Positions 1,664 to 64,000 of a stretch of 64,000 nt of DNA are shown here, in pieces. Both the position numbers and the translations under genes were made by a program. The notes under the pieces were generated by a model. The model did not search any database, was not told where the DNA came from, and saw nothing but the letters and a program-made list of their open reading frames with translations. This DNA is from Micrasema longulum (lineage: Eukaryota; Arthropoda; Insecta; Trichoptera; Brachycentridae), in contig JAGVSM010002364.1 of the NCBI GenBank assembly GCA_022494885.1, positions 1 through 64,000 on the forward strand, given 5' to 3'. Every line of letters begins with the position of its first letter. The first letter of the stretch is position 1.

Positions 1664-4584
1664 TGGCTTACCACATAGTCTAAGATTGGATTTTTTTAGA
1701 AAACAGCCAGCCAGTTCGGTGATCGTGTACTGGACATATCATTATATATTTTTACTATTGTACTTAATTGTTAAGAATAACTGGATTCATTTGTTGTTTA
1801 AAAATAATATAATCATACTTTAAAGCAATGTTGGCGATTCTTTTAAATATGGCTGACCACAAGGCCAAAAATATGTTCTATGCAGAAAACACCCGAATCT
1901 AATATTGAATAATACCTTATTTTAACCTTGAATGTATGAGCGTTGATTGCAAATTATGTGGGCATGTATTCTTGAAGTACTATCACAACTTCAACATCCT
2001 TCAAACCCACAACCACTGCTTACTTTTAGCCTCAGTATCCTTTGATGACCCGCTACAGTAGGACCTCGTGTCTTGTATCGAACGTTTCTTTTGTTGAACG
2101 TGTGACGCATCATAGACTTTGTTTCCACCAACCACCAGTGTTCAGCTTCAAGTTTAAAGCCTGTTCTAATGTTGGTGCCGCTCGCAAGTGACCAGTTGGA
2201 CCACACCAATTCCATCAAGAATGAACCAGGTTAGTGGCATCCATTCCTTATCTATCTCATTTGTTGGGGTTGTGCTCGATTGACACTACATACCGCATAT
2301 CGAGGATATTCACTTATTTCATTAAAATTAAAATACAGTCCACTCCGCTTAATAATATTGGAGAAGCCTTTGGGCTTCGCCCTTTACTATTTCTCGTCCC
2401 GCATCTGCGTGGGAATTTGTTTTTGTACCAAGCATTATGTATCAATTTTTTTTTTTTTATTACAGCTTTTTTCAAATTAATACATTTTTTAATTGAAAAA
2501 AAAATATTTTTTTTAAGAGAACTCGATTTTTAGAGGCAATAATTTTTCCATCTTTTTCATTTTCGTATTGTTGATGTTTTCTGCAAATCAGTTGACACTT
2601 TTTTCAAGTGATTATTATAGTTTTTTTGTATCCAAGTAGCCTAGCTGTTTAAAAAAATATGGAATTGACATTACTGCACCCGGTAACACCAACATTTTTT
2701 TTTGTAAATTGTAGACTGGGTGTTTTATGCATTTTAACGTTCATATGTACGACGTCGTTAATGGTCCTGTGGAAAAAGCTCTTGTGTAAACGGAATTTTA
2801 AATTGATACAAATGCAAATTGATTGGCCTTAAGAAGAAAGACTCACTAACGGAGAAATGGAGTCAATGGTATAAATCTCAAGTCAAGTCTACAAAAACGA
2901 AAAAATTACATTGACTTCATGTTCTTGTTTAATTTACTAAATGGCTTAATTAAATTTCCATCGTAACTGGTACAAGTGGCATTCAATGTTCTGATTTACC
3001 GGTTGCGAAATAATAATGTGCTGTTTCTTGATTGGCACAGAACAAACTATTGTTTGCATGCATCAATGCCCGATTGGGTCGCATTGTAAACTCGAGACAA
3101 AATCTGATATTTTTTTGGGTTTTCTAGATTTAAACTTTCACTAAGATAGACCAAATCTTGTCTTAAGGTAGATAAATTTTTTTTGTCCTAAATTTAATTT
3201 TATAAAGTTGAATTTCATTTCAATTGCACCTATTTTTACTAAAAAGAAATGTATCGACCATTGTATAATGGACTAAATAAGTTCGTTAATAAATCTTTAT
3301 TCATGATTTCCCACAAAATTGTGGTCTCAAGTCCAATTTCTTGAGCACCGAATCGATATTGATAAATTATTTTTAACACATCCAGAACAACAGCAATATT
3401 TTGAGCTGATCTACTTATAAAGGCTTGTGCTTTTTTGCTAAAAACCTCTTTTATCAAAATCTTTCACTTAACAATAATGCATCTTGATGGCACATTTTTT
3501 TACCCAAAATTACGCATAACTTTCTATTCGTCACAATAATTGATGATTGATTTTGATAAAATACTTTTACCATTAAAACTGGTTTATTAAGTAAATTTAT
3601 ATTATACATTTTTACGCATCTATATTTCATGGCTACCAAACATGAACTGTAAAAACTCATGTTTACCAAAATGGCGGGTGAACAAAATAGTAAAAAAAAC
3701 ATTTTTGAGACGCTGGCGCTGATAGAAAGTTACCAATATTCCCATTGGAGCATTTTAGATAGACACATCAATATCTTAGTTTATGAAATAAATATTCGAA
3801 TATTAAAATACATTCATTTGAACGGTTTGTTCCGGAAATGTGGAAAATCCTCGAGGATTTTCTTATCAGAAAATAAATAACCGAAATAGGCATAAGGATA
3901 ATCCTTTCTAGATTTTACCGAGTGTTGGAAAAACCGTGGAAAAAGAAAAGCTGCTTTCCAGCAGAAATATAACGTTTTTCCGACCGGTAAATCATTATTC
4001 GTACTAGGTAACACGTTGAAAAACTCCCACATTGTTTATATTAAAACGTTTTTTCTGACAGCGAGTTTTATTTCAAAGTTCATTACATTAGTTTTTACAG
4101 TGCCTCGATTCAACACGGATTTTCTAGTAAGTCGGAGCAAGTTCATAAGCATGAATCACTCTTGATTATAGTATGAGCGGTGTTTGTGTTCTATATATAT
4201 ATATATATTTAATAAAGTGGGGTTTGATTTATATTCATTATTAGCATATATTTTTTTCACTCTAGGTCATTTTATTTTTATTTCGACTTCCATATCCACT
4301 TTGAGAAACAACCACATGCTGACGGATAGTGAGGTTTAAATTTACAAAACCTGTGTCCAGCCCATTATGATATGGTATAGAAACAAGTCTCAAATGATAA
4401 ACTCGCGAGAAAGGAAAAGGACTCTTGCACTTATTGTCATCTTTTATTTCGACTTTCATATGCACTTTGGGACTTTATTTTTTTTCTCTATGTTTTGTAA
4501 TTAAAAAAATATTTTTGTTTATTCAAATTTACTCTAAAACTAAAAAATAAATTAACAAAGTTCTTGAAACGTATGTATTTTATG
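1664..4584. other. Unassigned AT-rich DNA
   Basis: No repeat shared elsewhere in the window was found. About 1980-2230 and 2340-2420 are GC-richer and might be old element debris, but I recognise no protein there. At 3670 an ATG in the context ACCAAAATGGCGGG opens a 70-codon frame running to 3880 with no recognisable domain; it is treated as a weak candidate in the findings. A short (AT)n run lies at about 4193-4210. Confidence 0.4.
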
Positions 4585-5058: not shown

Positions 5059-5849
5059 CTAAGTGTATTTGATACTTGCCTTAAATAAATATCATTGAGA
5101 TAAACGAAAAGAATTCACAAAAAAAAACAAGCCAGATATCTTACTAAATTTTTTTGATGTAAGTCAGCTACCAACTAAAGCTGAAAAAATATGCATATTT
5201 AACGATACCGTGGATGCTACTCGTATTCTGAATCTTCTCTTTTCTTCGAAATAAGCATTTGTGTAAAAATTGCAAAAAAATATTTCTAGCAGCTTCGCTC
5301 TATACAAAAGTATCTATGCTCTGAAGCTGCATATATGTAAAATTTATATTATACACTATAACAATTTATCATAATGATTATAATACTACCATGCTGCGAT
5401 AAAAATGAAGATACAAAAATAAAATGCTTGAAACATTTATAATAAAGTTAAAAAATAAAAAAATTAAAGCATAAAACTTTGCTTCGTATGGCCATACTGG
5501 TTATCAAACGTAAAATGGCGTAAAAGAAACAGTTTTTTAAATTTACATTTCATAGTTCAAAATTAGAAAAAAGTTTGTAAAAACGAAGAAAAACGTGTGC
5601 AGTTTTATCAATTCAACCTAATTAAGTATTTCGGGTAATGCTAAAGCTCACAAAAATGTTCTTAATGAAAATTATCATGTTTGGTTAAACGTTTTCGTAT
5701 TTATTTGGCCTTTAATGATCAGTGTGGCCATATATAAAGCAAGGTGTAGTCGCATGCAAAAAAAATATTGTTTCTTCTCTTGTTCTTCAAGAAGATTCAG
5801 AATAGCACCCTCGTAATAAAATAATAAAAAAAACTATAAAATGTTACAA
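5059..5849. other. AT-rich stretch, nothing recognised
   Basis: No coding frame, SINE head or shared repeat seen. Confidence 0.5.
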
Positions 5850-6236
5850 TGTTTGATTATGTCCAAATGCTTGCAGACTAGCTGGATTTCCTCCCTAGGG
5901 AGCTGTTCATATTCAAATTTATTTCAACAGAGAAGGAAAATGTTTTTGAGAAGGGAATATGAAAGTCTAGGCATTTACAGGGCTTATGACCTGTCATTGG
6001 CTGATTTAAGAGGCAACTTTACACACTGTGTAACATTCACCATTCTGCCCATGTTTGAACATCCACATTTCCTCAACTCTTCCATCTGCTGACTTTTGTG
6101 AAGTAAAAGAGCTGAAACCTTTATCACGCGGGTGAGGATCAGCCAATGACAGGTCATAAGCCCTGTAAATGCCTAGACTTCCATATTCCATTCTCAAAAA
6201 CATTTTCCCTCTCTGTTGAAATAAATTTGAATATAA
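5850..6236. repeat. FB repeat copy 2, near-palindromic fold-back element
   Basis: Two arms of about 96 bp (5909-6004 and 6139-6234) are inverted repeats of each other. One 33-base block ending in ATTGGCTGA is identical in the two arms. A spacer of about 134 bp carries the sub-terminal blocks CACACTGTGTAACATTCACC and CATCCACATTTCCTCAACTC. The outer left end begins near ATTATGTCCAAATGCTTGCA, found at the tips of other copies. No transposase is visible. The structure fits a non-autonomous fold-back DNA element; superfamily and target-site duplication could not be determined. Confidence 0.8.
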
Positions 6237-6244
6237 AATGTTAG

Positions 6245-6400
6245 TTTATAATTTATTGAATATAACCACTTACCAGTTTTTCTATATCAACCGGTTTCAG
6301 ACGTACATTAGAACCCTAGTTACGCTACATGCAAAACTCACTAAGCCATAACTTCACCATAACAATATACAATCAGTGTGCTGATTGGATCCATGGTATT
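6245..6400 (-). repeat. HHR repeat copy 1 (hammerhead-bearing, degenerate)
   Basis: The reverse strand contains GAAACCGG (complement of 6291-6298) preceded by TACGTCT and followed by TTGATATAGAAAAACTGGTA. This is the 3' half of the hammerhead found in copies 3 and 4. The CUGAUGA box is reduced to CTAATG and the 5' strand of stem II is mostly deleted, so the ribozyme is dead. Upstream flank GTGAGTTTTGCATGT matches the copy at 33135, so the homology extends well beyond the ribozyme. Confidence 0.65.
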
Positions 6401-8752: not shown

Positions 8753-9835
8753 AACCTATAAAATACTTGATTTTTTTTTTACAAATTAGATACTTTACTT
8801 TGGATCAGTTGCTTAGTTACAAGTGGTCTCAAAATTTTATTTTATGTATAGATTTGTGCAATAAAATAAGCTTTTTAATAAATAAAACGATTTTTCATTT
8901 TTTTTTTTCAATTAATTTGGAAGATGTGGATATAAATTTTATTTTGATTTTTAAAAATTCAATTTGAAAGATGCATTTAAAATATTGAAACTTCACAATG
9001 TAGACACTATTAATAAAATGAACTATATTTTACAGATTTACAAGGAGGAAAAAATAAACGAATTTTAGATTGATAAGTCTCTCAGATACCAGATACCAAA
9101 ATTAAAATTCCTTAATTTAACACAAATCATGGTCAAAACAGTTTTGTTTTTAAAGCGATAAAAATTTTTAATAATCTCCCTTACGAACAACCTATAAAAT
9201 ACTTGAATTTTTTTTACAAATTAGATTAGCTCAATTACAAGTGGTCTCAAAATTTTATTTTATGTATTGATTTGTGCAATAAAATGAGCTTTTTAATGAA
9301 TAAAACGATTATTACATTTTTTTATTTTTTAATTAATTTGGAAAATGTGGATATAAATTTTATTTTGATTTTTAAAAATTCAATTCGAAAGATGCATTTA
9401 AAATATTGAAACTTCACACTGTAGACACTATTAATAAAATGAATTATATTTTACAGATTTACAAGGAGGAAAAAATAAACGAATTTTAGATTGATAAGTC
9501 TCTCAGATACCAGATACCAAAATTAAAATTCCTTAATTTAACACAAATCATGGTCAAAACAGTTTTGTTTTTAAAGCGATAAAAAATTATAATAATCTTC
9601 CTTACGAACCAAAAACTAAACAAGTAAATTTAAAGGATTTTTTAAACCCGAGTAAAAACGACATTTTATTTAATTGGTATTACTGTATTATAATTTTTTA
9701 TTTTTTTATTTTGCATTTTTTTTTCTCATGTTAATTTGAAATGATATAACTTCACACTACTTAATAACTATAACAGTGTAAGGTCACTCTCCAAGCACAC
9801 GAGCTAGTGGTTTTTAAAGTTACAGTTATAACATT
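8753..9835 (+). pseudogene. LINE-c copy 1: C-terminus and 3' UTR with internal tandem duplication
   Basis: Two frames (about 9119-9187 and 9540-9606) encode the same peptide: NSFVFKAIKIFNNLPYE in unit 1, with the second unit slightly diverged. This matches the end of LINE reverse transcriptases, where a (F/Y)xGxKxxNxLP block precedes the final helix. The second copy continues into a K-rich tail and then a 3' untranslated region with GTGTAAGGTCACTCTCCAAG (about 9777-9796), found inverted in LINE-c copy 2 at 27915. Upstream stops and AT erosion make it a pseudogene. The reverse transcriptase core is missing. Confidence 0.7.
9189..9609 (+). repeat. Second unit of a 436-bp tandem duplication
   Basis: 8753-9188 and 9189-9609 are direct copies, both starting AACCTATAAAATACTTGA and ending near CTTACGAAC. 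They differ by small indels and scattered substitutions and appear more than 90% identical by eye. The duplicated block lies wholly inside LINE-c, so it happened after insertion or at a replicative step. Confidence 0.85.
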
Positions 9836-18610: not shown

Positions 18611-18858
18611 CCATCATCATTCCCTTTCCGCACCGAATGGTGCATGGGGCACTGCATCGACACAACAATCACAGCGGATCTTGATCATTTTTGTTACATG
18701 AAGGTTAGATGGCCTCACGTTTCATGTACCAGTCAGAAATATTTTTAGTATAAAAACACACTTTCAAATAAATATTTCATATCAAGCATGTTGGAAATCT
18801 AACCCAAAATCTCTTGCATGGCAGGCACATGCGCTGATCATTACACCACGAGTCAGAC
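18611..18858 (-). mobile_element. SINE-A copy, minus strand
   Basis: The tail end (CATCATCATTCCC) lies at the left and the tRNA-like head at the right, with the box A complement CATTACACCACGAG at 18839-18852. Box B is mutated (GGAAATCTAACCC on the plus strand). Full length with scattered substitutions. Confidence 0.85.
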
Positions 18859-22430: not shown

Positions 22431-24099
22431 TGAATACATCGGACGGTGTCGAAAAATCCCCCCACTATACCCCACTTTCATTCGCATTCGCGAGGTCACA
22501 GCGTAATGTGGCACGATGTGAAAAAATATAATCATTGAACAAATGTAAGGTAAAAAAAATCAATAAATTCATTTCTCTAAAATTTTATTGTGCACGCGAA
22601 AATATTGATTGACACAACAGAGTAGATAAGTAAAGGGTTATTTAATAAAAGTAATTGAATTAATAAACTTTAAATTTAAAATAAGAAATTAATTTTATTA
22701 TACATAAAACAATTATTTTTATATTTTGTAAAATAATATTTGATATTTTAAAGAGAATATCGGTCAAATGTCCACCACAGAGTTGTTTAATCCGAGGTCA
22801 AACTTTCATAAGTTCTTCTCATTAGATGAGCAAAGTAGAGTATAAACAAATTTACTACCCTGGTAACACTAACGAAATTTCCATTTTCTGACAGATGGAA
22901 AAATAATTCAATTTTTAAGTAATGCATTTGCTACTTACACATTTATTTGCTGATAACACATGACATGTGATCCCATCCTGTTTTTTTAAGATCCTAGCAG
23001 TATTTATACACTTTAAAAGGACACAACACGGAATAGTTGAATTCAAATCATGGGCTGCGTACTGAGCGTCGTCTTCAAAGAAACTAATGGGTCAAAACGT
23101 AAACCTACTTATTTATGAGTAGTTTAGTCGCTTTCTGTTTGATGTGCGTATGCGGTTTCTGGAATATTCCACATTTTATGAATAAAACTTTTATCATTCA
23201 TAATTATATCTCACTCACAAGAAAAAAATAGCATTTACTAGCAGGGTATTTTCAGGTTGGAATAAATTGCCAAGCATAGTTGTTCATTCCATTTTGATCA
23301 CCAAATCCAAAACCATTTACATGGTTTTTTTTAAGGAAAAAAAACGCAGATAAAAAGCAGTACATGAGATAAAGGCGCACAGACAAAAGCCTGCCAATGT
23401 GCCAATAACAGATTAGAATAGTAGACGTATTTTTAAGGCCCACAAAAGTTCAAGTTCTAACACAAATAATAAAATAATAGAGGCTTCAAATTATCCGTGT
23501 TTGATAAAATCTAATCAAATAGTTACGTTGTTTAATTTCATAATATTAATGCCAAATACAAGTTGAGATATTTATAAAATTACAAATATTTGTAAACGCG
23601 ATTCAAGAAACTTTTTACAGAATTAAATAATATAATATTCTGTTGTTATATATGAATGTTTATTCCCAACTTATCTCGATTTGCTAATGGCCGAAACGTT
23701 AGCAAACACTTGGAAAGAAAGTTTAACCCGTTATTCAATTGAAATCAAGTTAAAAGATTTGCATTCTTCGTTGACTTCGGGCAAAGTATTTCTTCAGATA
23801 AACTCAAAGTTGAAATTCGTTTTTGATCTTTGAACTACGCGGGGTTGGCCATTAGCTACATTTATCAGAATTATACTTAACGTTTTAGCAAAAAAATCAT
23901 GAATAATTATTTTAACCCGTTTTTATTCAGGAATGTGAAAAAATATTCGCCATGATTTTATTTTCTTCGTATTTACATATGTAATATTAAAAATAACAAT
24001 ACATTATTTATGAATAGGTATTTATATAAAATTCACTTAACATATTTACTTTGAGTTTACAGAGGGAGTTTCTTTATCAATAATAAATATATCAACAAA
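22431..24099. other. Unassigned DNA
   Basis: A short C-rich patch (about 22460-22520) and a GC-richer patch (about 23660-23870, with CTTTGATCTTTGAA-like words) are the only departures from AT-rich sequence. No gene recognised. Confidence 0.35.
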
Positions 24100-24395
24100 G
24101 TTTAAGTATGTCCAAATGCTTGCAGACTGGCTGGATTTTTTCCCTTAGGAGTTATTCATATTTAAATTTATTTCAACAGAGAGAGAAAACATTTTTGAGA
24201 AGACAATATGGAAGTCCTTCACAAATGTCAACAGATGGAAGAGATGAGAAAATGTGGATGTTCAAACATGGGCAGAATAGTAAAGTGGCCACTTAAACCA
24301 GCCAATGACGGGTTATAAGCCATTTGAATGCCTAGACTTCCATATTCCCTTCTCAAAAATGTTTTCCTTCTCTGTTGAAATAAATTTAAAAATAA
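24100..24395. repeat. FB repeat copy 3
   Basis: Begins at the tip block TATGTCCAAATGCTTGCAGA, then an arm fragment (ATTTATTTCAACAGAGAGAG), then sub-terminal sequence with GTCAACAGATGGAAGAG and CAAACATGGGCAGAAT, and ends with the opposite arm (AATGCCTAGACTTCCATATT through GTTGAAATAAATTT). Shorter in the middle than copy 2. Confidence 0.75.
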
Positions 24396-24411
24396 ATATA
24401 ACACTTAATAA

Positions 24412-24500
24412 TTGCAGCGTATTTTACCCTTTTTTGTTATATGAAGGTTAGACGACCAGTCTTGCGCCTCAAGTGCCAGTTCAGGGAATATAGAATATCT
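24412..24500 (-). mobile_element. SINE-A tail fragment
   Basis: Contains TGCAGCGTATTTTACC, GTTATATGAAGGTTAGA and AGTGCCAGTTCAGGGA, all from the SINE-A tail in minus orientation. It lacks the head and lies between two FB pieces. Confidence 0.65.
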
Positions 24501-24527
24501 TAACTAATGGCAACAAAGTGGGGCAAA

Positions 24528-24735
24528 CATGTTCAAGAAGGGAATATGGTAGTATAGGCATTTACAATGCTTATGACTTGCCACTGGCAGGTTTCAGTGG
24601 CCATTTTACATACTGTGCAACATTGACCAATCTATATATGTTTGAACATCCACGTTTCCTTAACTCTTTCAACTGTTAAATTTTGTGCATTAACAGGGCT
24701 GAAAACTTAATAAATATGGGTGAGATTTATTTGCC
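24528..24735. repeat. FB repeat copy 4, partial
   Basis: Holds AAGAAGGGAATATGG, GGCATTTACAATGCTTATGA, GTGGCCATTTTACATACTGT and TTGAACATCCACGTTTCC in FB order, without the second arm. Confidence 0.7.
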
Positions 24736-25864
24736 TGAATTATTTTATCTATTAGGCATTTGAAAATACATTTAAATTTTCAAAATTCTTATTTTTTAAT
24801 ATTTTATCCAGGAAACATACAGTACAATTACAAAGTTTTATAGTATGCAAAATTTTTATGGATCAGACCTTTCATATTATTTATTTATATTATTCATTTA
24901 TTAATTATATTTCATATTAATATTATAAGGGAAAAAAACGTCACAGAAAGTGGTTTAAAAATTGAAATTAAAGTAAAAAAGATATGTTAAAAGTATCTAG
25001 TCAGTAGGTATTTACGTTACTGGATATGAAATAAAAAATGAATACACTTTCCAAAAGCAATTAATAAATAGGAATAAAAAAAATAAAATTTTTAAAAAAT
25101 TAGAATAAAAACATGCTCAAATGCAGAAAAACCCTAAAAACATATAAGCAGATATTTTTTAAGAAATTGAAAAAAAAACAGATCAGAAGCAACATTGAAA
25201 AAAATGAAAAACAATTTATTTCAGTTAGTTTCAAAAACAACTAAAAAAATAATAACATATTACTGTAAAAGAGTGAATATATTATTTTTTAAAGTTATTT
25301 TAAGAGTAATTAAAAGTAATTTAAAAATAAAACATGTCCAGAGTAATAGAAGAAAAAATTAATGTAATATAATGTTTAAATTTTAAACACATTTAAATAA
25401 ATTATAAATCTTACACCTGTTGGTCTAATTAAAAATATTTTGAGCATGTCCAAATGTTTGTAGACAGTCTGTGTTTTAGTCTTTAGGTAGTTATTATGAT
25501 GTTTATTTACTAAGCAAAAATGTAAATTGGCAAACAAATAGACGGAGGATAAAAGGCTCATGATGTCATGATTTGTAAAAATATCAGTCATGAGCATCGT
25601 CGCAATATAAGAACGGATAAAATAAATCCCATCAACTCTGACATTCAAATCACCCCTCAATGTACGTAGCTACAACCCTGAAAAGGACTGCTTAGCAAAA
25701 AGCTTACATAGGATTAAAAAAGCAGATCTTAAAAGCATTTGTGTGTAAGCATAATCATATTTATTTATCATAATACTATTTATTAAAAATAAAACCTTTT
25801 CTGAAAAAAACAATATTTCTTAACTGAAATAAAAACATCGAATAGTTTTAAATACTATACAATA
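24736..25864. other. AT-rich DNA with an isolated FB tip
   Basis: At about 25432-25480 the FB tip block appears (TTTTGAGCATGTCCAAATG, then TGTAGACAGTCTG). The rest is A/T-rich with short spurious frames. Confidence 0.45.
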
Positions 25865-26035
25865 CGTCACTAAATGTTAGTAAATATTTGTATTTAACTA
25901 CTTATCGACCTTTCCATGTTTACCAGTTTTGAGACATAACCGTTACTCGGTCAATACATTAAAGACACCAACATGCAGATCCCACAGTACAGCTTCGCTA
26001 TGGTAAGTGCATAAAAATATAAAACAAAAGTCCTG
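25865..26035 (-). repeat. HHR repeat copy 2 (hammerhead-bearing, degenerate)
   Basis: On the reverse strand the order is ACCATAGCGAAGCTGTACTG, GATCTGCATGTTGGTG, then a decayed CUGAUGA region, TATGTCTC (3' strand of stem II), AAAACTGGTA in place of GAAACCGGTA, AACATGG, and a 3' flank GTCGATAAGTAGTTAAATAC. Flanks match copy 4 over about 160 bp. The ribozyme core has several substitutions and should be inactive. Confidence 0.65.
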
Positions 26036-26097
26036 GTAGGACTCAGCTATCTGAAGCCTGTGTACACTTATTAAAATAAAATAATGATATTTTTTTT

Positions 26098-26395
26098 AGT
26101 ACGTCCAAATCTTTGTAGAAAGGCAGAATTTAAAGAACTGTTTTTAAGCGATGCCTAGTAGGTGAAATAATTAAATAATAATAAATAAATAAATGAGGTG
26201 AATCTCACCTATATCAATAAAAGTTTTGGGTCTTTTACTTTACAAATGTCAACAGATGGAAGAGTTGAGGAAATATGAAAATGATAGGTCATAATTCTTG
26301 TAAATGTCCAGACTTTTATACTCTCATCTCAAAAATGATTTTTGTTTTCGGTTGTAACAAATTTAAATCATTATACAAAATGTTTAATCTTATAA
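26098..26395. repeat. FB repeat copy 5
   Basis: Starts with the tip-like TACGTCCAAATCTTTGTAG, contains GCGATGCCTAGTAGGTGAA, AATGTCAACAGATGGAAGAG and GTCATAATTCTTGTAAATG, and ends near GGTTGTAACAAATTTAAAT. It shows that the block with CCTAGTAGGTGAA belongs to the family centre, as in copy 10. Confidence 0.7.
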
Positions 26396-26589
26396 GAATA
26401 AACATAAAAAAAGGTAAAGGACTTAAAATATTTCAAACAATAATAAAAAAAAAATTGTATGAATATATTTCACACTGGAAAGGCTTTAAAAAATAATATT
26501 CCATTAATTAATAATCAAATAGCCTTTCCGTTCACATGAATATATTTTTTAAATAAATATTTTATTTTTTTTAATAACCTCATCTGTAT

Positions 26590-26723
26590 TTAAATTTCAT
26601 CGCAATTTTCAACGAGTTGTAAACAACTCACCATGTAAATCTATTTGGGGTAGAGTGGGGTTCGAACCTCGGACCTCTGATACGTGAGTCCGGATCACTA
26701 GCCACAGGACCACAACCCGATTC
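26590..26723 (-). mobile_element. SINE-B copy 1
   Basis: On the reverse strand: a box A-like GTGGTCCTGTGGCTAGTG and a box B-like GAGGTTCGAACCCC, followed by a body that ends with GAGTTGTTTACAACTCGTTG (a self-complementary block) and an A/T tail. It is a second tRNA-headed SINE family, distinct from SINE-A in head and tail. Other copies: 35335, 42107, 42963 (tail only) and 62848, all on the minus strand. Confidence 0.8.
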
Positions 26724-26829
26724 TTAATGATTTATAAATTAATACTCATCCACTTTTTCAAACTTTTGTTACTAAAAGATTAAGTATTTATTTATCCTCA
26801 TCAATACGTCATATTGGTGTTAGCTTATA

Positions 26830-26995
26830 ATAGCATTTGTCATATCAGTACGTTGATTGAATATTTTTGTACAGCTGGAATTTTCATGTTAGTACAATTT
26901 GTGTTCTGACGAAAAAACGTGTACGTCTCGAAACCGGTAAATATAAAAATGTCGTCTAACGAGTTACAATAAATTATTTTCACTATGTAATATAT
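26830..26995 (+). ncRNA. HHR repeat copy 3: hammerhead ribozyme-like motif, best-preserved core
   Basis: Stem I pairs 26898-26905 (TTTGTGTT) with 26940-26947 (AATATAAA), eight pairs counting G-U. The core CTGACGA is at 26906-26912 (CUGANGA, with the variable position C). Stem II has loop TGTA (26920-26923) and a three-pair inner stem (ACG/CGT), eroded further out by A-C mismatches. GAAA is at 26930-26933. Stem III is the minimal CC/GG (26934-26937), and the cleavage triplet GUA is at 26937-26939. All conserved core bases are present; the weak point is stem II. A two-pair stem III is known from hammerheads of Penelope-like elements and some satellites, which can act as dimers. No reverse transcriptase of the Penelope type is visible beside it. 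Confidence 0.65.
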
Positions 26996-32935: not shown

Positions 32936-33134
32936 ATGAATGACCGAACAAAAAAAGATTTTTAGCTGAAACCAAAACTTATTTAAATAAGTTAAGTCAC
33001 TTCTAAATGCTCGAAATAAGGCGTTTTAATTGCTAAGCCTTACGATTTCACTTGAAAAAAATATGGAGACTAAAATAAAAGGCATAATATTTATCCTAAT
33101 CAGTGCATGTGCTTATTAAATGGCATGTCATGTT

Positions 33135-33295
33135 GGTTTTATATTTATGCGCAACAACCATAGTGAAGGTGTATAGTGGGTTTTGCATGTTGGATTAATT
33201 TGTGTCCTGATGAAGAGACGGGTACGTCTCTAAGCCAGTAGACATAAAAAAGTCGGTAAGTGGTTTTATACAAACATTTAATAACATTTAGTAAA
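33135..33295 (+). ncRNA. HHR repeat copy 4: hammerhead ribozyme-like motif, best-preserved stems
   Basis: Stem I pairs 33199-33206 (TTTGTGTC) with 33241-33248 (GACATAAA), eight pairs. CTGATGA is at 33207-33213. Stem II is a perfect seven-pair helix, AGAGACG (33214-33220) with CGTCTCT (33225-33231), closed by GGTA. The conserved GAAA is changed to TAAG when aligned to copy 3 (33231-33234), and stem III CCGG reads CCAG, so this copy is probably inactive. Copies 3 and 4 lose different positions. Flanks (GGTTTTATATTTATGC upstream, TACAAACATTTAATAACATT downstream) match copy 2. Confidence 0.7.
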
Positions 33296-33324
33296 AGGCA
33301 TAAATTTACCGTGATAATTGACAA

Positions 33325-43445: not shown

Positions 43446-43960
43446 CTGAGCTTTATTTATTTTATTTTATTAATTTTATTTTATTTATTTATTCATTCAA
43501 AATTACAAAATTAAATATTTATGAACTTATTAAGGCTTTTTAGGCTATGCCCGTGTCAAGCCACAATAAATAACAATAAAAATACATAGTAAAATTTATT
43601 AAATCAATTTATAATGACATAGAATCACAATCTAGAAAAAAAGATAAATGTAATAAATAATCAAATTCCAAAGAATACAAAGCAAAAAAGATATTCAGAA
43701 ATAATTTTTAAAATATAAATTTATTTATTAGGTCAAAAGCAAAACTTTTCCAGACTTTGCCCTTTTTTAATGATGTTAGTATATATTGAATGTTCCGAAC
43801 ATTTTTAGAGTCGGTGGTGTTGGTATTCTCCTATAACTTCACTCTGCAAGTAATTTATGTATTTTTTCGATAATACCAAGTATATTACGGTGCAAGAAAA
43901 GGTGAATTTTAGTATTTGCATGCTAGTGAAGCGAGTGTTTTCAAGAAGAGACATATATGT
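43446..43960 (-). pseudogene. LINE-s: 3' end with AAAAT tail, inserted next to LINE-r
   Basis: A (TTTTA)n run at about 43452-43500 is its A-rich tail on the minus strand. Its 3' UTR includes GGCTTGACACGGGCATAGCC and AAAAAGCCTTAATAAG (complement near 43520-43560), a LINE-type 3' hairpin. Upstream, SLKKGKVWKSFAFDLINKF resembles a worn polyprotein end. Family assignment is weak; orientation is well supported by the tail. Confidence 0.5.
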
Positions 43961-43980
43961 ACGTTTCAAAACGGAAGTAA

Positions 43981-44120
43981 TTATCTACCATTTATCGACT
44001 TTTCTATGTCTACCTGTTTCGAGATAAACTCGTCTCTGTGTTAGGATACTTATTACACTAACATGTAAATCCCACATAACTCACAGCATGACAACGCTCA
44101 GCCACATGTTTCAAGACTGA
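43981..44120 (-). repeat. HHR repeat copy 5 (hammerhead-bearing, degenerate)
   Basis: The reverse strand contains AGAGACG, then TATCTCGAAACAGGTAGACA (complement of about 44007-44026). This preserves GAAA, the GUA triplet and part of stem II, with one stem III mismatch (CA/GG). The CUGAUGA box reads CTAACAC, so the copy is inactive. Spacing from CATGTTAGTG to AGAGACG equals that in copy 4. Confidence 0.7.
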
Positions 44121-47080: not shown

Positions 47081-47342
47081 TCATCGTCGTCATCATTCCC
47101 TTTCCACACCTAATGGTGCATTGGGCACTGGATTGGCGCACCAATCGCAGCGTATCTTGATCATTTTTGTTACATGAAGGTAAGATGATCAGCCTCACGC
47201 TTCAGGTACCAGTCCAGGGACTATAAAATATTTTAGTGTACAAACACCCATTTAAATAAATATTTTATTTCACCCATGTCGGGAATCGAACCCGAGACCT
47301 CTTGCATTGTAGGCAAACGCACTTACCATTACAGCACAAGTA
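47081..47342 (-). mobile_element. SINE-A copy, best preserved
   Basis: On the reverse strand box B is GGGTTCGATTCCC, a perfect match to the tRNA T-loop consensus, and the tail ends GGGAATGATGACGACGATGA. A good reference for the family. Confidence 0.92.
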
Positions 47343-50458: not shown

Positions 50459-50828
50459 CTTTATTTTATTTTATTTTATTTTATTTTATTTTATTTTGTT
50501 TTATTTTATTTTATTTCATTTCATTTTATTTTATTTTATTTTATTTTATTTTATTTTATTTTATTTTATTTTATTTTATTTTATTTTATTTTATTTTATT
50601 TTATTTTATTTTATTTTATTTTATTTTATTTTATTTTTATTTTTATTTTATTTTATTTTATTTTATTTTATTTTATTTTATTTTATTTTATTTTATTTTA
50701 TTTTATTTTATTTTATTTTATTTTATTTTATTTTATTTTATTTTTATTTTATTTTATTTTATTTTATTTTATTTTATTTTATTTTATTTTATTTTATTTT
50801 ATTTTATTTTATTTTATTTTATTTTATT
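50459..50828. repeat. (TTTTA)n array, about 370 bp
   Basis: Nearly pure pentanucleotide repeat with a few interruptions (TTTTG, TTTCA and one-base expansions near 50636 and 50742). It adjoins the 3' end of the minus-strand LINE-o, so it reads as an (AAAAT)n tail. The long open frames across it are artefacts. Confidence 0.95.
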
Positions 50829-63050: not shown

Positions 63051-63061
63051 TATAATGTTAA

Positions 63062-63200
63062 ATATAGGCAGAATGGTGAATGTTACCCAGTGTGTAAAAT
63101 GGCCACTTAAACCAGCCATTGACAGGTCATTAGCCCTGTAGATGCCTAGACTTCTATATTACCTTCTCTTAAATGTTTTTCATATCTGTTGTGGTGTGTT
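63062..63200. repeat. FB repeat copy 9, one arm
   Basis: GGCAGAATGGTGAATGTTAC, ACTTAAACCAGCCATTGACA and AGATGCCTAGACTTCTATAT match the right arm of FB. Confidence 0.75.
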
Positions 63201-63281
63201 AATAAAAATGTAATTTAAAATAAACAAAACAAATAAAAACACCAGGTGCTTAATTAATATTTAAACATTTAAAGAATACAA

Positions 63282-63838
63282 CAATATTTTGAGTATCTCC
63301 AAACTTTTGCAGACTGGCTGGGTTTCCTTTCTAAGGAGTTGCTCTTATTCAAATTTGTTACAACAGAGAGAACAAACATTTTTTAGAAGGGAAAATGAAA
63401 GTCTCGGCATTTAGAGAGCTAATGACTTGTTATTGGCTGGTTTAAGTCGTCACTTTACACACTGGAAATCTAGTCAGTCTGAAAGCATTTGGACATACTC
63501 AAAACATTGCTGAATTAACTACCCAGTAGACGAAGAAGTATAAAAATTGTAAAATTGTTTTCAGGCGTTGCCTAGTAGGTGAATTGGTTCAGCCGGATAA
63601 ATCTCACCCACATGATAAAGGTTTCAGTTTTTTTACATAGTAAAACTCAACAGATGGAAGAGTTGAGGAAATGTGGATGTTTAAACGTGGGCAGAATTCG
63701 TGAATGTGAAACAGTGTTTAAAATGGCCACTTAAACCAGCCAATGACATGTCATAAGCCCCGTTAATACTTAGAATACCGTATTCCCTTCTCAAAAATGT
63801 TTTCCGTCTCTTTTGCGTCAAATTGAAATATAAATGTA
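63282..63838. repeat. FB repeat copy 10, longest fold-back copy
   Basis: The left arm starts at TATTTTGAGTATCTCCAAAC and runs through CAACAGAGAGAAC, GGCATTTAGAGAGCTAATGA and CACTTTACACACTGG. The centre holds an inverted tip (AGCATTTGGACATACTCAAA) and CAGGCGTTGCCTAGTAGGTG. The right arm contains CAACAGATGGAAGAGTTGAG, GGCCACTTAAACCAGCCAAT and CCCTTCTCAAAAATG, complementary to the left arm. No open frame. This copy gives the fullest map of the family. Confidence 0.8.
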
Positions 63839-64000
63839 TCTAAAATAAATATGACGCTCCATTGGCCCATTGGGAACATTAATTGTTGGTAAATCGCTTG
63901 TTCCCTTTCGGACCTTAATTAATTCCTCTGAATACAAAAAATATTTTTTATTCCATGAGTATTAAAGGAATTTTTCGAAAAAAAACGTTATCTTTAATGT
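63839..64000. other. AT-rich edge of window
   Basis: No feature supported. Confidence 0.5.

Follow-up and report, generated by a model that had tools for sequence, protein, structure and literature searches.

Organization of the motif and its copies in the window

The window, a stretch of 64,000 nucleotides from a contig of Micrasema longulum, carries a hammerhead ribozyme motif (copy A) within one copy of a dispersed repeat. The elements of copy A are:

26898-26947, forward strand: copy A of the hammerhead, read directly from the letters and from the family alignment
26898-26905 (UUUGUGUU) with 26940-26947 (AAUAUAAA), forward strand: stem I, eight pairs, two of them G-U, by direct reading
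26906-26912, forward strand: CTGACGA core, by direct reading
26913, forward strand: unpaired extra A between CUGACGA and stem II, by direct reading
26914-26929, forward strand: stem II, AAAACG-TGTA-CGTCTC, by direct reading and family alignment
26930-26932, forward strand: GAA, by direct reading
26933-26938, forward strand: palindrome ACCGGT, one half of stem III, by direct reading
26939, forward strand: A17, with the cut predicted between 26939 and 26940 from the dimer fold of the family core

All core elements, with an eight-pair stem I, were found by direct reading in the order and at the place given in the initial annotation, although two details of its layout need revision. The CUGANGA box and stem II are both present but do not join directly, one unpaired A (26913) lying between them; similarly, the CC/GG letters of the two-pair stem III are there but do not close as a hairpin, because ACCGGU lacks a loop and can pair only between two motifs.

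The weakening of stem II that had been described is confirmed by the alignment, where copy A has two A-C mismatches relative to the family's GAGACG/CGTCTC. In the run measure that we also used for chance matches, copy A has eight pairs in stem I and none in stem II, since the stem II pair adjoining the core is broken. Folding copy A as a single strand gave nothing above its shuffles and a structure less stable than most of them, and folding it as a dimer gave no full double hammerhead. Given this predicted dimer fold and the two broken stem II pairs, copy A, which had been called slow or dead, is probably dead, an old and decayed copy.

The repeat was said to be dispersed, and a profile search recovered a further five window copies, of which one is weak. 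This 245-position profile, derived from the initial 30 pattern loci, puts CTGA at position 103 and the predicted cut after position 136. The six copies, here called arms, are:

26803-26954, forward strand: arm A, putative pseudo-LTR (pLTR) piece with the ribozyme described above (profile match of 62.1 bits)
33106-33310, forward strand: arm B, with a hammerhead copy (169.8 bits)
43987-44079, reverse strand: arm C, a decayed hammerhead copy (60.8 bits)
25857-26027, reverse strand: arm D, inverted, putatively the inverted 5' pLTR of the insertion that holds arm A (87.5 bits)
6214-6365, reverse strand: arm E, partial, most of the 5' core deleted according to the alignment (41.0 bits)
43839-43972, forward strand: arm F, a weak partial copy adjoining arm C in the opposite orientation (18.2 bits)

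Abundance and structure of the ribozyme family

The pattern CTGANGAN{8,36}GAAACCGGTA has a single match in the window, and none of 100 dinucleotide shuffles contains it. Across the genome of the same species (584 Mb scanned in 5184 contigs), it has 1451 + 1383 = 2834 exact matches, 100 of which were listed by place, and the reversed pattern used as a control has 2 + 1 = 3. The consensus of this family (family 1) reads GUGUC/GACAU, CUGACGA, GAGACG-GGUA-CGUCUC, GAAA, CCGG and GUA, and thus contains the hammerhead core (CUGANGA...GAAA, stems I and II, and NUH before the cut) with a perfect 6-bp stem II and a 5-bp stem I, neither of which was demanded by the search pattern. The expectation of a full hammerhead in the consensus is borne out in that the core, both stems, GAAA, CCGG and GUA are all present; its cleavage is a prediction.

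When two family 1 cores are folded together (ViennaRNA), the predicted minimum is a double hammerhead in which the stem I strands are exchanged, ACCGGU pairs with ACCGGU and stem II forms within each strand, at -36.1 kcal/mol versus 2 x -16.3 kcal/mol for the monomers. The monomer hammerhead without stem III, at -13.8 kcal/mol, is not the monomer minimum. Among 80 arms judged (from 85 taken), the dimer minimum is the full double hammerhead in 19 and not in the other 61, these folds being predicted secondary structures and not activity.

We considered whether the resemblance is a coincidence fixed by copy number, the repeat being a mobile sequence that looks like a hammerhead and does not cut. 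Copy number by itself would preserve any sequence, and the decay of family 1 looks neutral, with paired double changes no commoner than independent decay predicts. At profile pair 102-137, both sides are changed in 4 of 82 arms, three of which pair, the per-side change being 18% and 20%; at pair 100-139, both sides are changed in 3 of 83 arms, two of which pair; and the six pairs of stem II hold three double changes in total, one of them paired. Such a lack of excess covariation is expected of dead copies of one source. A candidate outer stem I helix (GUUGGU/GUCGGU) was dropped, five of its six consensus pairs being G-U with no covariation.

The coincidence is nevertheless very improbable, given that the core, two complete stems and a palindromic stem III occur together in one consensus. 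In a second control, comprising 243 listed matches of the core pattern in viral and prokaryote contigs (duplicates not removed), the longest stem I run is five pairs, reached by 1 of the 243, and none has at least three pairs in both stems; by the same run measure, the family consensus has five pairs in stem I and six in stem II. A second subfamily (family 2) also argues against coincidence: relative to family 1, both partners differ in two pairs of stem II and one of stem I while still pairing, and the core letters are kept; this is, however, one comparison between lineages and not many events.

The family 2 pattern was taken from locus L293 and itself fixed four stem II pairs; it has 339 + 368 = 707 matches in the same genome and 0 in the control. 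Most rows listed have GAGGU-AGUA-ACCUC as stem II, the sixth pair being lost, and stem I is UUC/GAA in L293 and L321, with one mismatch in L322. In addition to the core letters, family 2 shares with family 1 ACCGG and the extra nucleotide after CUGANGA, which is A in family 1 and T in family 2, and the triplet is GUC in L321, L322 and one arm of L293. In the predicted dimer minimum for the L293 core, stems II and III are retained but stem I is not. Family 2 is better evidence for the structure than covariation within family 1. The initial annotation had named a loss of core bases and pairings as its refutation; core and stems are conserved in the family 1 arms aligned, and family 2 keeps the core. 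The hammerhead of chrysanthemum chlorotic mottle viroid likewise has one additional nucleotide between A9 and stem II.

The covariance search that had been proposed as a check came out negative, Rfam models giving no hammerhead at E <= 10 in the window, the locus and 15 other loci. Since the literature treats minimal forms as atypical, we attribute this to the models' limits and do not take recognition by them as a defining feature. A weak Rfam match to Twister-P5 at L297:541-605 (23 bits versus a cut-off of 37.6) is most likely chance.

Association with a Penelope-like element

Judged from its coding context, the repeat is the pLTR of a Penelope-like element (PLE). The frame between the arms of several loci is the end of a Penelope-like protein, and a 77-residue C-terminal peptide searched against the same genome gave 6711 first-look candidates, with all 150 of the 150 scored matching at E <= 3.4e-28. 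The Pfam scan and homologue search were of no use with the short C-terminal peptide and informative with longer frames, two of which (L319 and L320) show the SGVY...YIG...EH arrangement of GIY-YIG nucleases. Pfam GIY-YIG scores are 20.5 bits (E 6e-4) for L320, 16.5 bits (E 0.01) for L319 and 20.4 bits for a third locus, L321, all below the cut-off of 22.6. The best homologue, a PLE protein (P0001) carrying PF01541, is 44% identical to L320 and 40% to L319, and as a query has 117 matches in the same genome.

When places were compared by eye, two family 2 ribozymes among the 100 listed were seen to adjoin a P0001 match in the same orientation, one in contig C359 and the other in C113. In L321, on contig C359, a frame of 645 amino acids combines RVT_1 (35.7 bits, cut-off 29.6) with the GIY-YIG match, and the CTGA of the ribozyme begins 106 nt past its stop codon; L322 has an equal 106-nt spacing behind a frame broken by stops. 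The spacing in these two loci places the ribozyme downstream of a Penelope-type ORF, a reading made in family 2, while the link for family 1 consists of the C-terminal pieces between or beside the arms together with L319 and L320. The reverse transcriptase is classed as PLE type on account of its fusion to GIY-YIG and not by a tree. An assignment to Penelope-like elements had been made from the motif, and it agrees with this fused frame upstream of the ribozyme and with a frame remnant in the window.

No intact element in which two direct pLTRs carry the ribozyme was found in L321-L324, and the core pattern is absent from L323 and L324, which hold other PLE frames. L323 (contig C3634) represents another PLE lineage with a 70-bp direct repeat (1110-1179 and 3973-4042); near the 3' repeat, at about 3930-3985, it has a hairpin, then GAA and a palindrome of 8 nt (ACTATAGT), with no CTGANGA before them, which could be a decayed or divergent hammerhead-like motif or chance.

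Within the window, three features lie between arms D and A:

26453-26545, forward strand: decayed end of a Penelope-like frame (tblastn E 8e-7 with L319, 1e-5 and 2e-5 with two related queries)
26201-26367: another repeat, resembling repeats near 24 and 63 kb
26605-26720: a tRNA-like repeat

The frame remnant sits in the sense of arm A, and we infer that about 25857-26954 is one old insertion made up of an inverted 5' pLTR, a truncated ORF end and a pLTR with the ribozyme, the two other repeats having presumably arrived later. The repeat at 26201-26367 is a member of an inverted-repeat, MITE-like family in the window, with further members at 5835-6237, 24093-24790 and 63055-63850. Other tRNA-like repeats, about 250 bp long and probably SINEs, occur at 1408-1480, 18790-18849 and 47271-47341. 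The window also holds a 421-bp tandem duplication (8817-9609, 96%) and, at 50460-50828, a long array in which TTTAT is repeated 73 times.

Among 119 arms, we counted 43 neighbouring pairs within 1 kb, comprising 37 in head-to-head order (-+), three ++, two +- and one --; nine loci chosen for being head-to-head pairs supply 8 of the 37. Pairing played no part in the choice of the 29 distinct pattern loci, which follow list order and gave 12 -+, one +- and one ++. This arrangement bears on the possibility that the repeat is an animal non-LTR retrozyme, that is, a small non-autonomous tandem repeat with a circular RNA and type I hammerheads. Size and AT-richness are similar, and, in the sections of PMC7229834 on retrozymes and newt satellite 2, those elements likewise have a type I hammerhead whose stem III is weak and which can function as a dimer. 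A few arms here do lie in direct order about 300-360 bp apart. However, the same sections describe tandem, non-coding repeats with circular RNA, whereas the copies here are mostly inverted and tied to a coding element, which the repeat ends. Direct order, at the 150-450 bp expected of retrozyme-type tandem repeats, is not the rule, occurring in only 4 of the 43 neighbouring pairs. Stem III is loopless here, while PMC7761336, in its part on invertebrate retrozyme motifs, gives most of them a stable helix III. A retrozyme is thus highly improbable. The rare direct-order arms (L265, L301 and C442:36067-36434) could form a double hammerhead within one RNA.

A palindromic MITE, a DNA transposon that had acquired a ribozyme, would explain the head-to-head arms, and tight palindromes with arms of about 235 bp do occur (e.g., L258 and L294). 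Against it, many loci have the end of a PLE coding frame between their arms, the inner ends of the 119 arms are unequal, and head-to-head pLTRs are known from Penelope: the portions of PMC3846280 on the element of the rotifer Adineta vaga describe a direct pLTR with an adjacent inverted pLTR, head-to-head, and truncated copies, as seen here, although its copy number is low and the family here has thousands of copies. We therefore regard a MITE origin as extremely improbable and retain the PLE assignment.

Inner arm ends fall at profile positions 134-139 in 3 of 119 arms and at 132-144 in 6, versus 28 of 119 at 67-94, where a 12-bp unit of varying number blurs their alignment; they show no clear trace of in vivo cleavage and do not speak in its favour. 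This unit, TTTGCATGTTGG, lies directly 5' of the ribozyme and varies in number in L252, L255, L258, L294 and L300. Of 116 outer ends, which are spread, 23 fall at 186-200 and 58 at 217-241. Target-site duplications were not clear in any of five loci, four of which have matches of 6-8 bp, seen without a control. Just 3' of the ribozyme (profile about 143-158), the arm consensus AAAAGTCGGTAAGTGG resembles an intron donor site and, among the window copies, is kept clearly only in copy B (near 33255-33265). Introns occur in PLE.

Proposed mechanism and comparison with known systems

Collectively, the evidence makes it very probable that copy A is a decayed minimal type I hammerhead in the pLTR of a Penelope-like retrotransposon; its family is predicted to cut as a dimer. 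The RNA of an active source element would have carried the motif just downstream of its ORF. Two such motifs, located on two RNAs or in two pLTRs of one RNA, would pair their ACCGGU palindromes and, according to the predicted folds, exchange stem I strands to give a double hammerhead, which would cut after GGUA, or after GGUC in most of the family 2 copies read.

Minimal PLE hammerheads, described by Cervera and de la Pena (2014) and Lunse, Weinberg and Breaker (2017) and summarized in parts of PMC7761336 and PMC6466107, likewise have a type I core without a proper, usable helix III, are mostly dispersed or found in PLE pLTRs, and have been proposed to cut as dimers; PMC7761336, in its part on these motifs, calls them widespread and gives their role as unknown. 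Both subfamilies here carry the extra nucleotide between CUGANGA and stem II, which may set them apart from the published PLE motifs. A parallel in coding context is PAc, a Poseidon element of Anolis carolinensis, for which sections of PMC11167929 describe a hammerhead at the pLTR and an RT/GIY-YIG protein, as here. The PAc ORF begins at stem II, whereas in L321 and L322 the ribozyme lies downstream of the ORF, with no 5' copy seen. The same sections report that the PAc ribozyme cut in vitro only when protein was added and that no RNA-seq reads started or ended at its cut site.

A more speculative and rather doubtful extension is that the family acts as an obligate two-motif switch, in which the loopless ACCGGU, and perhaps the extra nucleotide, would keep a single PLE RNA uncut, so that cleavage would follow only when two element RNAs or pLTRs meet. 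Were this the case, the switch would serve the retrotransposon as a sensor of concentration or packaging, and head-to-head genomic copies would blunt it through pairing of sense and antisense RNA.

The kind of ribozyme is already known, while the family, which numbers thousands of copies in this genome, is new. It is large and clear, and standard RNA searches miss it; otherwise it is an ordinary example. Its two subfamilies, which differ in stem II and triplet and have the palindrome in common, provide a natural set in which to test the need for dimerization and the role of the cut for the element.
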